From: a bacterium | Lineage (GTDB): Bacteria > Sysuimicrobiota > Sysuimicrobiia > Sysuimicrobiales > Segetimicrobiaceae | Assembly (NCBI GenBank): GCA_035691305.1 | Contig: DASSJF010000019.1 | Span: 1 to 53,920 of the forward strand | Direction of reading: 5' to 3' | Length of the DNA stretch: 53,920 nt | In this document: piece by piece, positions 10,909 through 17,038 of the stretch | How the letters are laid out: every line of letters begins with the position of its first letter | Numbering within the stretch: position 1 is the stretch's first letter | Made by a program: the position numbers and the translations under genes | The notes under the pieces: model-generated | Database searches by the model: none | Told to the model about the DNA's origin: nothing | What the model saw: only the letters and a program-made list of their open reading frames with translations

Positions 10909-12348
10909 TTAGACGTCGTAGTAGAGGAAGAACTCGTACGGCACCGGCCGGATGTTGACCTCGTGCACTTCCTTGGTGCGCTTATAGTCCAGCCACGTAT
11001 CGACGAGGTCGCGCGTGAAGACGTCGCCCTCCAGCAGGAACTCATGGTCGTTCTCGAGCGCGTCGAGCGCGGCGGCGAGCGAGCCGGGCACGCTCTTGAT
11101 CTTCGCGGCCTCGTCCGGCGGCAGTTCGTACGTGTTCTTGTCGAGCGGACCGAAGCCGGCCTTTACGGGGTCGATCTTCCGCTTGACGCCGTCGAGGCCC
11201 GCCAGCAGCATCGCCGAAAACGCGAGGTACGGGTTGCAGGTCGCGTCCGGGCAGCGGAACTCGATGCGCTTCGCCGACGCGCCGGCCGGACCGCTGTGGT
11301 ACATCGGGATCCGGATTGCCGCGCTCCGGTTGCGCTTGCTGAACGCGATGTTGACCGGCGCCTCGTAGTGCGGCACGAGGCGCCGGTAGGAGTTGGTCGT
11401 GCACGCGCAGAGCCCGAGCAGCGCGTCGACGTGGGTCAGCACGCCGCCGATGTAGTAGAGCGCCTCCTGGCTGAGCTCGGCGTAGCCGCCCTCGCTGTAG
11501 AACAGGTTCTGGCCGCCCTTCCAAATGCTCTGGTGGCAGTGCATGCCGGTGCCGTTGTCGCCGAAGAGCGGCTTCGGCATGAACGTCGCGGTCATGCCGT
11601 GGCGGCGTGCGACGTTCTTCACGATGTACTTGTAGGCGAGCAGGCTATCGGCCATCCGGGTCAGCGTGTTGTACTTCATGTCGATCTCGCCCTGGGAGCT
11701 CGCGACCTCGTGGTGCTGCATCTCGACCTCGATGCCCCACTTCTCCATCTCGAGCGACATCTCGCTGCGGATGTCGAGCTGCGTGTCGGCGGGCGGAACC
11801 GGGAAGTACCCTTCCTTCGTGCGGATGCGGTGTGCCATGCCCGGCTGGCCGGAGTTCCAAATCCCCTCCGGCGAGTCGATGCTGTAGCCCATGCGGTACG
11901 GGTGGACGTCGTACTGGACGTTGCTGAAGAGGAAGAACTCCGCTTCGGGCCCCCAGTAGCTCACGTCGCCGACGCCGGACGCCTTGAGGTAGTCCTCGGC
12001 CTTCTGGGCGACGTAGCGCGGGTCACGCGTGTACGGCTTGCCGTTGATCGGGTCGAAGATGTTGCAGATCACCGACAGCGTCGGGATCTCGGCGAAGGGA
12101 TCGGGCCGGGCGGTCGCCGCGTCGGGCATGAGGAGCATGTCGCTCTCTTCAATCGCCTGGAAGCCGCGGATGCTGCTGCCGTCGAACCCGATGCCGCGTT
12201 TGAACGTCTTCTCGTCCACCTGGCTCGCGGGGATCGTGGCGTGCTGCCACGTGCCGGGCACGTCGACGAACTTGAAGTCGACCATCTTGACCCCGCGATC
12301 CTTGATGTACGCGACGACGTCCTGCGCCGTCATCTCCTTGCCCGCCAT
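10909..12348 (-). CDS. glnA: Type I glutamine synthetase
   Basis: Makes glutamine from glutamate, ammonia and ATP, the main ammonium-assimilating step. The 479 residues fit the GSI-beta length. Visible motifs are DGSSIRGF (56-63), the GPEAEFFLF glutamate-binding segment (133-141), the ATP segment KPLFGDNGTGMHCHQS (about 259-274), NRSAAIRIP (340-348) and the adenylylation region DKNTYELPP with Tyr407. A tyrosine here is the GlnE target in GSI-beta enzymes, so covalent control is possible, but no glnE is in the window. A strong GGAGGTGA lies just before the ATG. The 5' leader contains a promoter, a hairpin and an intrinsic terminator, implying attenuation before the gene is reached. Confidence 0.97.
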   Translation of the reverse strand: MAGKEMTAQDVVAYIKDRGVKMVDFKFVDVPGTWQHATIPASQVDEKTFKRGIGFDGSSIRGFQAIEESDMLLMPDAATARPDPFAEIPTLSVICNIFDPINGKPYTRDPRYVAQKAEDYLKASGVGDVSYWGPEAEFFLFSNVQYDVHPYRMGYSIDSPEGIWNSGQPGMAHRIRTKEGYFPVPPADTQLDIRSEMSLEMEKWGIEVEMQHHEVASSQGEIDMKYNTLTRMADSLLAYKYIVKNVARRHGMTATFMPKPLFGDNGTGMHCHQSIWKGGQNLFYSEGGYAELSQEALYYIGGVLTHVDALLGLCACTTNSYRRLVPHYEAPVNIAFSKRNRSAAIRIPMYHSGPAGASAKRIEFRCPDATCNPYLAFSAMLLAGLDGVKRKIDPVKAGFGPLDKNTYELPPDEAAKIKSVPGSLAAALDALENDHEFLLEGDVFTRDLVDTWLDYKRTKEVHEVNIRPVPYEFFLYYDV

Positions 12349-12380: not shown

Positions 12381-12418
12381 AAAAACAAAGACGCCCTCTG
12401 GAAATCCCAGAGGGCGTC
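12381..12418 (-). terminator. Promoter-proximal intrinsic terminator in the glnA leader (attenuator)
   Basis: On the minus strand a perfect 12-bp stem (12418-12407 with 12401-12390, 5-nt loop) is followed by TTTGTTTTT (12389-12381). It lies between the glnA promoter (12451-12479) and the glnA ATG (12348), so it should stop transcripts early unless an alternative structure forms. Confidence 0.8.
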
Positions 12419-12445
12419 CCGGCCCGCGGTACCTCTTGGTACCGC
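12412..12445 (-). promoter_or_regulatory. Hairpin pair upstream of the glnA terminator, possible antiterminator
   Basis: Right at the predicted transcript start, GCGGTACC (12445-12438) pairs with GGTACCGC (12433-12426) across an AAGA loop. A second small hairpin can form directly after it: GGGC (12425-12422), six-base loop CGGGAC, GCCC (12415-12412). Its 3' strand is part of the terminator's 5' arm, so hairpin and terminator exclude each other. The layout resembles the two-hairpin targets of ANTAR antiterminators, but the loop bases match that consensus only at position 4 (G), not at position 1 (C instead of A). Confidence 0.45.
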
Positions 12446-12450
12446 CTCAA

Positions 12451-12479
12451 GATATACCACGGGGGCAGAGCGCCGTCAA
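12451..12479 (-). promoter_or_regulatory. Sigma70-type promoter of glnA
   Basis: Minus strand TTGACG (12479-12474), 17-bp spacer, TATATC (12456-12451). Predicted start near 12444, giving a leader of about 95 nt. The remaining intergenic sequence up to the VOC gene stop at 12584 shows nothing I recognise. Confidence 0.7.
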
Positions 12480-12583: not shown

Positions 12584-13033
12584 TCACTTGATGATCCCGA
12601 TGCGGTTGCCCTCCGGATCCGTGAACACGGCGAACGTGACCATGTTGGGAATCTCCGTCGGCGGCACGACCGTGCTGGCGCCCAACTGCCCCGCTTTCCG
12701 CAGCGTGGCGTCGAGGTCGGCGACCCGCACGTAGAAGGTCACGTGCGACGGGCCGCCCTGGGCGGGACCGATCCCGCCGTTGATCCCGTCTCCGCCGGCC
12801 GTGACGAGTCCGTAGCCCATCGGGTTGTCCGCGTTGATCTTCCAGCCGAAGAGATCCCCGTAGAACGCGTGCAGCGCCTTCGGGTCCTGGGCGTTGATCT
12901 CCCAGTGCACCACCGGATGGCCCGCGGCGCCGCGGCGTCCCTTCGGCGGGCGCCGCGAGGCCCGGGTGCGCGATCGGGTGCCTGTCGCCCGCTTGGGTGT
13001 CCTTCGTGCCGGTCGAGAGCGGCGCTGAGCCAT
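12584..13033 (-). CDS. VOC-family (glyoxalase/bleomycin-resistance fold) protein with basic N-terminal tail
   Basis: A 149-residue protein. Residues about 40-149 form a single VOC domain (VVHWEINAQDPKALHAFYGDLFGW at its start; FTDPEGNRIGI at its end), the compact metal-binding fold of glyoxalases and dioxygenases. Relatives with this start are often called VOC family proteins of unknown function. The first 35 residues are unusual: 15 are Arg or Lys, with Ala, Pro and Thr, giving a histone-like tail that could bind nucleic acid or be disordered. AGGAG lies about 10 nt upstream of the ATG. It sits between the SRPBCC gene and glnA on the same strand. Substrate unknown. Confidence 0.8.
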   Translation of the reverse strand: MAQRRSRPARRTPKRATGTRSRTRASRRPPKGRRGAAGHPVVHWEINAQDPKALHAFYGDLFGWKINADNPMGYGLVTAGGDGINGGIGPAQGGPSHVTFYVRVADLDATLRKAGQLGASTVVPPTEIPNMVTFAVFTDPEGNRIGIIK

Positions 13034-13599: not shown

Positions 13600-15384
13600 T
13601 TACCGGCGGCGGGCGGTGCGGCGGCCGGGGGCGCGCGCCCGCGCGGGGGCGCGGCGTGTCGCCGCTTTCTTGCGAGCGCGGCCCGAAGAGCGCTTGGCGG
13701 GATTCCGGGATGGCTTTGCCGCCTTCGCCCGCGCCTTCTTGCGCCGCGACTCGGCGCGGCGGCCCTTTGCGGCGACCGTGCGCGCCGCCGGCGCGGGCGG
13801 CACGCCGCCCACCGGCACCAACTCGAACCGCGCCGTCGGCGCGGGCACCCCGGCCCCTTTCACGGTTCCCGGCAGGATCCGGAAGACGGGGCAGAGCACG
13901 ACGTCGATGCGCCCGCCCCCCGGCGCAAACAGCGCCGGAATCTGCAGCGTGCGCTGTCCGACGAGCGTCATCGGTCCGGTCGGCGGGGCCGACAGCCACC
14001 GGCGCACCATATCGTAGGCCGGCGTGTCGGGGACGGCGACCGCGGTGACTCGAGTACGCCCGGGCGCGTCGCCGAAGGCGAACAAGAACGGACGGCCCTC
14101 GACGAACTGGCTGCGCCCGCCGTAGAAGCGTCCCGTCATGTAGACGTAGGCGGTCTCCTCGGCGGGCGCGTGCCGGAACGTCAGCGCCGCGCCGGTGATC
14201 GCGAGGCGCGTCGGCGACTGGAAGTCCGGGAACGGCATCGGGTGGACCGTCTCGATCTGCGTCCACTCCTCGCCGCCGGGCGCGTCCAGGGCGATCGGCG
14301 GGAAGACGAGCCCTCGCTCCGTCGTCACGCTGCGCACCGGGTGGATTTCCAAGAGGTGCGGCAGGTCGGGATGGTCCGCCGACGCGTGGTCGGGCAGAAT
14401 GCGGAGAAAACCGCTGACGGTGACGCGCTGCTGGGTCGTGATGATCTCGTCGAGCAGTTGCGCGTAGGCGCTGTGCGCCGTTCCGCCCGCCTCGAGCGCG
14501 CCCGGCCGCACGGCGTTCTGGATGACGGCCGCGACGATGCCCTCACGCTCGCCCGGCGACGGCGCGAGACCGAATATGATGCCGAGCCCGTACGCGCCTT
14601 CGGCCGTCCGGCCGGTGACGTACCCTTCGACGGTCACTTCCGCTCCCGGCCCCAGGCGCAGGTACCCGAGCGGCTCGAGTCCGGAGCCCATGATATCGGT
14701 CTCGGCCGAGCCGCCCGGCACGATCCGGATGCCGGACAGGACCCGCAGGAGGTCGGCGGGCGTGCGGATGACGATGCGGGTCGCGGGCTGCGAGGGCACC
14801 GTGCGCCGCAGCTCGTCGGAGACCAGGATCGCGCGCGCGATCTCCCGCATCGGCGTCCGGGTGTTGCGGCTCTGGCGTTGGATGCGCTGGAAGGCCTCCT
14901 GTTCGTCGATGCCTTCCCGCGACATCAGGATGCCCTTGGCGCGCTCCACGAGCTTGCGGGTCTCCAGGGTGTCCTTGAGGTTGCCGACCTCCGCCTGCAG
15001 CGTCCGCAGCTCGGCGAAGCGGGCCATCGCGATCTCGATCGCCGGCACCAGCTCGGCCTCCCGCACCGGCTTGACGAGGTACGCGAGCACGCCGGCCTCC
15101 TGCGCGCGCTGGACGAGGTCGCGCTCGCTCCACGCGGTGAGCAGGATGATCGGCCGCGGCGAGCGCGACATAATCGTCGCGGCCGCGGAGATGCCGTCGA
15201 GCCCCGGCATCTTGATGTCCATGAAGATCAGGTCGGGCGACGTCTTGTGCGCCAGCGCGACGGCCTCTTCGCCGTCCGGCGCCTCCGCGACGACCTTGTA
15301 CCCGTGCTCCTCCAGCATGGCCTTGAGGCCCATGCGAATCACGGGCTCATCGTCGGCGATCAGGATCTTCAGCGCGTCCGGCAT
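13600..15384 (-). CDS. ANTAR-domain response regulator with a large C-terminal extension
   Basis: Residues 1-120 are a receiver domain: acidic pair Asp11/Asp12, phosphoacceptor Asp56 (FMDIKMPG), Thr83 and Lys105. Residues about 128-190 form an ANTAR RNA-binding domain (KLVERAKGILMSREGIDEQEA region). ANTAR proteins bind paired hairpins in nascent RNA and block intrinsic terminators. Typical PdtaR-like regulators stop near residue 200, but here one open frame runs to residue 594. Residues about 195-535 are beta-rich and match no family I can name. Residues about 540-594 are a Lys/Arg/Ala-rich histone-like tail. It starts 1 nt after the histidine kinase stop, so the kinase is its likely partner. 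Receiver and ANTAR assignment is firm; the extension is unexplained. Confidence 0.9.
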   Translation of the reverse strand: MPDALKILIADDEPVIRMGLKAMLEEHGYKVVAEAPDGEEAVALAHKTSPDLIFMDIKMPGLDGISAAATIMSRSPRPIILLTAWSERDLVQRAQEAGVLAYLVKPVREAELVPAIEIAMARFAELRTLQAEVGNLKDTLETRKLVERAKGILMSREGIDEQEAFQRIQRQSRNTRTPMREIARAILVSDELRRTVPSQPATRIVIRTPADLLRVLSGIRIVPGGSAETDIMGSGLEPLGYLRLGPGAEVTVEGYVTGRTAEGAYGLGIIFGLAPSPGEREGIVAAVIQNAVRPGALEAGGTAHSAYAQLLDEIITTQQRVTVSGFLRILPDHASADHPDLPHLLEIHPVRSVTTERGLVFPPIALDAPGGEEWTQIETVHPMPFPDFQSPTRLAITGAALTFRHAPAEETAYVYMTGRFYGGRSQFVEGRPFLFAFGDAPGRTRVTAVAVPDTPAYDMVRRWLSAPPTGPMTLVGQRTLQIPALFAPGGGRIDVVLCPVFRILPGTVKGAGVPAPTARFELVPVGGVPPAPAARTVAAKGRRAESRRKKARAKAAKPSRNPAKRSSGRARKKAATRRAPARARAPGRRTARRR

Positions 15385-15385
15385 C

Positions 15386-17038
15386 CTACGCCGCCGCCGG
15401 GCGGGGCATCGTGATGACGACGCGCGCGCCGCCGGCGTTCGTGAACCAGATGCGCCCCTTCAGATCGTCCTGCACCAGCGTGCGCACGATCTCCAGCCCG
15501 AGGTCGCTCGACCGCTCGAGCGCGAACCCGTCGGGCAGCCCGACCCCGTCGTCGCGCACCTCGACGCGCAGCGCCTCCGGCCCGAGCATCAGCACGATCA
15601 CGACCTGGCCGGCCGCGCGTCCGGGGAAGGCGTGCTCCATCGCGTTCTGCAGCAACTCGTTCACGACGAGCGCGAGGGACGTGGCCTGCTGCGTCGGGAG
15701 ATGCACGTCGTCGCCGCTGACGCGCGCGTCGAAGCGGAAGCCCGGCGGCGCCATCGTCTGCGTCACCGTGTGCACGACCCGGTCGAGCATCTCGCGGACG
15801 CTCACGGTCCCGAGCCCTTCGGCGGCCAGGATCTCGTGCACCGCGGCGATGCTGAGGATCCGGTTGATCGTCTCGGTCAGCACCTCGCGGCCGGACACTT
15901 CGCGCCCGTCCCGCATCTGCAGGCGCAGCAGCATGGCGATCATCTGGAGGTTGTTCTTGACCCGGTGGTGCATCTCGCGCACCATCGCGGACTTGACGAC
16001 GAGGCCGGCGTTCTCGATCGCGAGCGCGGTCTGGTTGGCCAGCGTCTGGAGCATCGTGGTCTCCGGCGGCGTAAACACGTGCGGCCGGCCGAGGTAGACC
16101 GTCACCACGCCGAGCGTGCGGTCCCGAACCCGGAGCGGGACCGCGAGCGCCGAGCGTGCCGGGCCGCGGCCGAGCATCTCCCCCGGCGCGACGCGCCGGT
16201 CGCCGGCGGCGTCCTCGCTGCTGAGCGGCTCGCCGGACTGCGCGGCGCGTCCGGGCAGGCCTTCGCCGAGCCGGAGCGTGACCCGCGGACCCGGCGCCGC
16301 CTCGGGTTCCGTCGGATGGGCGGCGGCGAGGGCCAGCCCGTTGCCGTCCGCGAGCATCAGCGTGCACAGCGACGCGTCGAACACCCGCGCCGCCATTTCC
16401 ACCAGCAGCCGGAAGATCTGTTCGAGGTAGAGAGGCGAGGTGAGCGTTTCGCTCACCTCGGCGAGGGTGCGCAGCTCGAGAATCTGGCGCCGCATGCTGT
16501 CGTGGAGCCGTGCCTTCTCCAGCGCGCCGCCGGCGAGGTCGGCGATGATGCTGAGCAGCTCCACTTCGTCGTCCGCCCAGGCGTGGACGCCCGTCGTCTG
16601 GACGTTGACCGCGCCGAGCACCCGCCCGGTCACCGTCAGGGGCAGAGCCAGCAGCGACTGGAACAGCGTTTCGTGCGTCTCCGGCAGGTACTTGAAGCGG
16701 GGGTCCGCGGTGGCGTTGCTGGAGGCGACCGCCTCGCCGTGCTCGGCGGCCCAACCGGTGAGGCCCTCGCCGTACCGGAGGCGCGCGCGGCCCACCGCTT
16801 CCGCCGCCAGCCCGGTCGTCGCCCTGAGGACCAGGTACTCGCCGGACGCGTCGAGCAGGTAGATCGAGCAGCTGTCGACCCGCATCACCTCGGCGGTCTT
16901 GCGCGTAATCAGCGTGAGGGTGGTGTCGAGGTCGACCGCCGCGCCGATCGCGCGGCTGATCTCGCGCAGCGCGGAGAGCTCCTCGGCCTTGCGCGCGAGC
17001 TGCGCCTCGGCGTCGGCCGCCACGCGCTGCGCCGTCAA
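15386..17038 (-). CDS. GAF-domain sensor histidine kinase, HisKA_2 type (PdtaS-like)
   Basis: A soluble 550-residue kinase with no membrane segment. It has a short coiled coil (about 5-30), two GAF domains (about 30-175 and 190-345), a HisKA_2 dimerisation/phosphoacceptor segment EMHHRVKNNLQ with His357/His358, and a HATPase_c domain (N box NELLQNAMEH near 460-469, DDGVGLP at 496-502). HisKA_2 kinases paired with ANTAR regulators are the PdtaS/PdtaR type. The start is judged to be the TTG at 17038, which overlaps the hppA stop (TTGA), with GAGG about 10 nt upstream; a GTG at 17023 is the alternative. It is therefore coupled to hppA upstream and to the ANTAR regulator downstream. The GAF ligand is unknown. 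Confidence 0.88.
   Translation of the reverse strand: MTAQRVAADAEAQLARKAEELSALREISRAIGAAVDLDTTLTLITRKTAEVMRVDSCSIYLLDASGEYLVLRATTGLAAEAVGRARLRYGEGLTGWAAEHGEAVASSNATADPRFKYLPETHETLFQSLLALPLTVTGRVLGAVNVQTTGVHAWADDEVELLSIIADLAGGALEKARLHDSMRRQILELRTLAEVSETLTSPLYLEQIFRLLVEMAARVFDASLCTLMLADGNGLALAAAHPTEPEAAPGPRVTLRLGEGLPGRAAQSGEPLSSEDAAGDRRVAPGEMLGRGPARSALAVPLRVRDRTLGVVTVYLGRPHVFTPPETTMLQTLANQTALAIENAGLVVKSAMVREMHHRVKNNLQMIAMLLRLQMRDGREVSGREVLTETINRILSIAAVHEILAAEGLGTVSVREMLDRVVHTVTQTMAPPGFRFDARVSGDDVHLPTQQATSLALVVNELLQNAMEHAFPGRAAGQVVIVLMLGPEALRVEVRDDGVGLPDGFALERSSDLGLEIVRTLVQDDLKGRIWFTNAGGARVVITMPRPAAA

Follow-up and report, generated by a model that had tools for sequence, protein, structure and literature searches.

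Response regulators of the ANTAR class use RNA binding as their output, and their usual, though not strictly defining, architecture ends soon after the ANTAR domain. The window analyzed here (the whole stretch of 53,920 nucleotides) encodes a regulator that continues for more than 400 residues beyond that domain. This raises the questions of whether the fusion is genuine, which transcript the protein controls and what the additional residues contribute. The reading frame, running on the minus strand from 15384 to 13600, comprises 594 codons without interruption. Residues 7–116 matched the Pfam family Response_reg (E 2.7e-29) and contain the key receiver residues Asp11/Asp12, Asp56, Thr83 and Lys105, while residues 135–187 matched PF03861 (E 8.8e-22; 77.1 bits against a cut-off of 27.3). 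Frame and Pfam boundaries agree with an earlier note, made from the letters alone, that described one uninterrupted 594-residue frame with receiver and ANTAR at its N-terminus. Residues 195–540 gave no Pfam or NCBIfam match at E <= 1, and among 11 homologous extensions compared with Pfam no family matched more than one. The note's further description, of an ANTAR regulator fused to a domain of about 340 residues from no known family, is thus borne out by both libraries, and its alternative, that the extension is a known domain in a common architecture, finds no Pfam or NCBIfam family to support it. Coordinates of the locus are collected below.

Features of the regulator locus and the glnA leader in the window
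Feature	Positions	Strand	Basis or remark
REC-ANTAR-extension-basic tail response regulator	13600..15384	-	594 aa, uninterrupted frame; same fusion kept in further species of the family
Receiver domain (residues 7-116)	15037..15366	-	Pfam PF00072; Asp56 phosphoacceptor, Thr83 and Lys105 kept
ANTAR RNA-binding domain (residues 135-187)	14824..14982	-	Pfam PF03861
C-terminal extension (residues 195-535)	13780..14802	-	Lineage-specific, beta-rich, possibly OB-like
Arg/Lys/Ala-rich basic tail (residues 536-594)	13603..13779	-	Composition
GAF-GAF-HisKA_2-HATPase histidine kinase, presumed partner	15386..17035 (domain extent)	-	Pfam; adjacency
glnA, type I glutamine synthetase, probable target	10909..12348	-	NCBIfam TIGR00653 over cut-off
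Promoter-like TTGACG-17-TATATC of glnA leader	12451..12479	-	TTGAC and TATA-like box conserved in 10 species
P1 hairpin GGTAC[CAAGAG]GTACC, hexaloop with G4	12428..12443	-	
P2 hairpin GGGC[CGGGAC]GCCC, hexaloop with G4	12412..12425	-	3' arm within terminator 5' arm
Intrinsic terminator of glnA leader	12381..12418	-	

A frame of this length could be an artifact in which a sequencing or assembly error fused two genes, an objection that the earlier note itself had raised and for which nothing beyond the unusual length speaks. When 61 genomes were searched with residues 195–540, each of the 12 belonging to the window's family, its own among them, gave a match to the extension, and none of the others did. 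Wherever the family locus is complete on its contig (a few contigs are cut), receiver, ANTAR domain, extension and tail lie in one frame. Because other genomes of the family, with assemblies from separate projects among them, show the same in-frame fusion, the idea of a sequencing join was dismissed. There are also no internal stops, and dN/dS is low on either side of the junction; we consider the chance of an artifact negligible. Across 11 further family species, identity to the window's extension was 70–91%. Nei-Gojobori dN/dS relative to the window was 0.04–0.14 for REC-ANTAR, 0.10–0.25 for the extension and 0.28–1.2 for the tail; by this measure the extension is under purifying selection. 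The regulator is a real, conserved ANTAR fusion to an unannotated domain, confined to a single family within a soil phylum on which there has been little work.

ANTAR proteins were found in 39 of 43 genomes of the phylum. Unlike the window's regulator, those read outside the family end 0–12 residues past the ANTAR domain, and three of these extension-less regulators sit directly behind an orthologue of the GAF-GAF-HisKA_2 kinase. Since regulators of other families, kinase-linked orthologues included, stop right after ANTAR, their comparison suggests that an ancient kinase-regulator pair probably acquired the extension at the base of this single family. An extension profile searched against 386 genomes found nothing outside the family except one marginal match (E 9.5e-4), which covers the same profile stretch as matches in other long frames. 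Weak profile matches in frames of 800–1186 aa were rejected as chance; the single frame inspected encodes DnaE, and the matched segment is helical and lies outside the OB domain of that protein. When contigs of approximately 85,000 species were scanned, the only relatives came from metagenome-assembled genomes that belong to the same group and bear the label ANGP1 or 'Bacillota', and viral contigs contained no relatives of the extension. Sequence matches in the PDB to TM1086 (E 0.44) and to an MCM N-terminal domain, which contains an OB fold (E 0.089), were too weak to use. The profile search for the same fusion elsewhere, proposed in the earlier note, returned the window's family and group alone in the genomes and contigs covered, apart from the marginal match. 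Four genomes of genus g9 (G016, G029, G035 and G037) showed neither an ANTAR protein nor this glnA type at the thresholds used, and joint loss of the two is possible.

The genomic setting points to a partner and a target. In the family members read, the gene order is H+-pyrophosphatase, kinase, regulator, zero to two small genes and glnA, which puts glnA on the downstream side of the regulator. The kinase adjoins the regulator not only in this family but also in three that lack the extension (four in all), and kinases read from three extension-less families are 55–62% identical to that of the window. Apart from this regulator, no ANTAR protein was found in the genome.

Antitermination by ANTAR proteins has a recognizable RNA layout, with two hexaloop hairpins, G4 in each, and the second hairpin exclusive with a terminator (PMC3369931, PMC8934654). 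Judged by its sequence, the glnA leader shows this layout. P2 (12412–12425) overlaps the terminator (12381–12418), making the two structures mutually exclusive, and the terminator displays compensatory changes at five pairs. G4 is found in every P1 loop of genera g1, g3 and g4 and in the aligned P2 loops. In the window, folding alone shrinks the P1 loop to 4 nt via a C-G pair. Where known ANTAR targets have A1 (PMC3369931), the hexaloops of the family begin with C or T; in the EutV crystal, G4 is specifically contacted and A1 is without specific contact (PMC8934654). A consensus promoter scan made no call at the promoter-like element of the leader.

We built a covariance model of P1 plus P2 from six glnA leaders, with genome G001 held out. 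The model recovered the held-out leader at 46.8 bits, 78 nt upstream of glnA in that genome, and made a single match in the window's own genome (E 1.5e-8), the runner-up (0.79) being at chance level. Genera g1, g3 and g4 each yielded one strong site per genome, always before glnA. Six sites in the window's genome fit the P2 pattern, and only that of glnA is then followed by such a terminator. P2 with an overlapping terminator precedes glnA in all 12 family members as well as at 12 of 18 loci of other families (24 of 30 in total), the extension-less families concerned being f2, f4, f5 and f6. Occurrence of G4 in this phylum-wide P2 set is not independent evidence, as the search pattern itself required G4. 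Other families of the phylum resemble the window's in this leader and, in the three read, also in the kinase neighbor of the regulator.

An attenuator read by a metabolite-binding RNA or by another protein, with the regulator acting on targets elsewhere, would account for the missing A1 and for the uneven occurrence of P1, which is not evident in most other families and is unrecognizable in most leaders of genus g2, where P2, the terminator and the fused regulator are all present. Rfam returned only chance matches on the leader, none above gathering score, and the covariance model finds no second site in the genome. Dual G4 hexaloops over a terminator, a lone ANTAR protein and gene linkage all suit ANTAR, and we regard a different reader as improbable. 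Two further features of the P1 region were seen. Leaders of g2 (e.g., L103, L104, L106 and L107) carry a GAATAG/GATAG-like stretch in P1's place, with similar stretches in f2, f4 and f6. The glnA leader of G015 (L109), from an extension-less family, has a long P1, GAGGTAC[CGTGCC]GTACCTC, approximately 20 nt before P2, with the same GGTAC stem as the window's genus.

Two characterized systems resemble the N-terminal part of the regulator. The best match among solved structures is PdtaR (Rv1626) of M. tuberculosis, the partner of PdtaS (1s8n, E 2.7e-56, residues 6–187). PdtaS is a HisKA_2-type kinase, like the presumed partner in the window; in contrast to the window's regulator, PdtaR is a 205-residue chain, with the match ending at its residue 196, and has neither extension nor basic tail. 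EutV/EutW of Enterococcus faecalis share the REC-ANTAR core (6wsh, E 1e-40), and their leader resembles that of glnA in having a pair of hexaloop hairpins with G4 in both loops and in the overlap of the second hairpin with a terminator. The systems differ in that EutV/EutW loops start with A where those here start with C or T, and EutV is without a C-terminal extension. Six of seven EutV RNA-contact positions are kept or conservatively replaced, with a numbering offset of 2 deduced from the chain. Among the positions contacting G4 (PMC8934654), Arg142, Lys149 and Glu160 are kept in the window's regulator and Tyr164 is Phe. Met172, essential in EutV, is Arg in the window's regulator; Arg is usual also in extension-less relatives.

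Collectively, these data make it quite likely that the kinase phosphorylates the receiver, an ANTAR dimer captures P1 and P2, P2 keeps the terminator from forming and transcription continues into glnA. In the proposed sequence of events, the adjacent GAF-GAF-HisKA_2 kinase would phosphorylate Asp56, consistent with kinase-regulator adjacency across four families. The regulator would then dimerize, and its ANTAR domains would bind the G4 hexaloops of P1 and P2 in the nascent glnA leader. We infer this step from motif, gene order and uniqueness, namely a single ANTAR protein in the genome, a single covariance-model site and gene linkage to glnA. Formation of P2 would exclude the terminator, allowing RNA polymerase to read into glnA; the mutual exclusion is seen in the sequence, and its effect on read-through is what we infer. 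The absent A1, the Met172-to-Arg difference and the unrecognizable P1 in most of g2 count against antitermination of glnA. As a target, glnA is not new in kind, because glutamine synthetase genes are already listed among the predicted ANTAR targets of other bacteria (PMC3369931).

The extension itself was approached through structure prediction. AlphaFold models, based on an alignment of six sequences, had a pLDDT of 37.5 for the whole extension (first model) and 54.4 for its first half (second model). The order of strands and helices in the first model, at that pLDDT, resembles b-b-b-a-b-b twice over. Foldseek neighbors of both models were almost all OB folds, among them AspRS/AsnRS anticodon-binding domains, SSB, Cdc13 and engineered OBodies, with best E values of 0.016 (first) and 0.14 (second) and no match at E <= 0.001 for either. 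Nucleic-acid-binding domains of this kind are like the extension in predicted strand-helix order, but differ from it in that no significant E-value and no sequence relationship was found. An OB-like fold is therefore suggested only. The earlier note had guessed at such a fold for the middle part; the recurrence of OB neighbors for both models favors that guess, whereas the models are poor and no E value falls below 0.016. The repeated strand-like phrases it described are visible by eye, but duplication gains no profile support. Internal tandem duplication was rejected as a candidate after hhalign comparison of the two halves gave no meaningful alignment, a weak test given the shallow profiles (Neff 1.5).

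The tail (residues 536–594) contains 18 Arg, 8 Lys, 16 Ala and one acidic residue, for a net charge of +25. With 26 basic residues against one acidic among the last 59, the Lys/Arg/Ala-rich C-terminus had been read correctly by eye. Net charge was +14 to +26 in 11 of 11 tails examined, while their sequence drifts. Very G+C-rich DNA gives other frames some positive charge too, so tail charge alone is moderate evidence. The composition fits an H1/AlgP-type Lys/Ala/Pro-rich basic C-terminus, but with Arg exceeding Lys. Other proteins of the genome showed no match to the tail, in a type of search by which low-complexity tails are hard to find. A Glyoxalase/VOC-like protein encoded near the regulator (12584–13033, minus strand) has its own Arg/Lys-rich N-terminal segment of approximately 36 residues.

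Our first choice, held tentatively, is that extension and tail form an accessory nucleic-acid anchor, preferred over a ligand sensor and then over a protein-interaction platform. In a last step of the mechanism, the possibly OB-like extension and the basic tail may tether the regulator to the transcription complex or to RNA as it emerges. The OB neighbors of both models, many of them anticodon-binding or SSB, and the basic tail in all 11 cases argue for this role; the predicted pI of the extension alone (6.2) and the lack of a significant fold or sequence match argue against it. A stronger version, in our view rather unlikely, is a bipartite antiterminator in which ANTAR reads the hexaloops and the extension constitutes a nucleic-acid-binding domain of a new kind, its OB-like part and the tail holding RNA or single-stranded DNA of the transcription bubble. 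This arrangement, if true, would allow read-through of a strong G+C-rich terminator. The earlier note had proposed a second nucleic-acid-binding half in a new architecture. The conserved fusion to a new domain survives from that proposal, whereas the pI of the extension and the retention of the P2-terminator leader without it weigh against the binding half. Because families lacking the extension share this leader, the extension is not essential to the leader design.

We give similarly low credence to the extension being a ligand-sensing or allosteric domain, responding for example to a nitrogen-status metabolite and adding an input beside the kinase, with the tail a polyanion-binding or low-complexity appendage. 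To our knowledge, sensor fusions to ANTAR are all N-terminal to it; moreover, no known sensor domain in Pfam or NCBIfam resembles the extension, and its top fold matches, though weak, are mostly nucleic-acid-binding OB folds. A sensor would nonetheless be in keeping with the good conservation of the extension (dN/dS as above), its near-neutral pI, the adjacent glutamine synthetase target gene and the presence of sensor domains in other ANTAR fusions, for example NIT in NasR (PMC3369931). Somewhat less likely again is a platform for interaction with glutamine synthetase, the kinase or RNA polymerase, without nucleic-acid contact. OB and small-barrel folds can bind proteins, and the order of kinase, regulator and glnA is kept in the family, yet extension-less families keep the same kinase beside the regulator.

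Taken as a whole, our reading of the locus is a two-component glnA antitermination regulator of the PdtaR/EutV kind with a lineage-specific C-terminal module, perhaps an accessory anchor, a composite that we hold with evenly balanced confidence. How ANTAR proteins achieve antitermination in vivo is debated, as one dimer binds per hexaloop, yet both loops are needed (PMC8934654). A natural ANTAR protein with a large conserved module, situated beside a single probable target, would test whether a second contact aids antitermination. The locus would also add a soil phylum that has received little study to the range of ANTAR control over glnA, and its extension represents a domain family missing from Pfam and NCBIfam.
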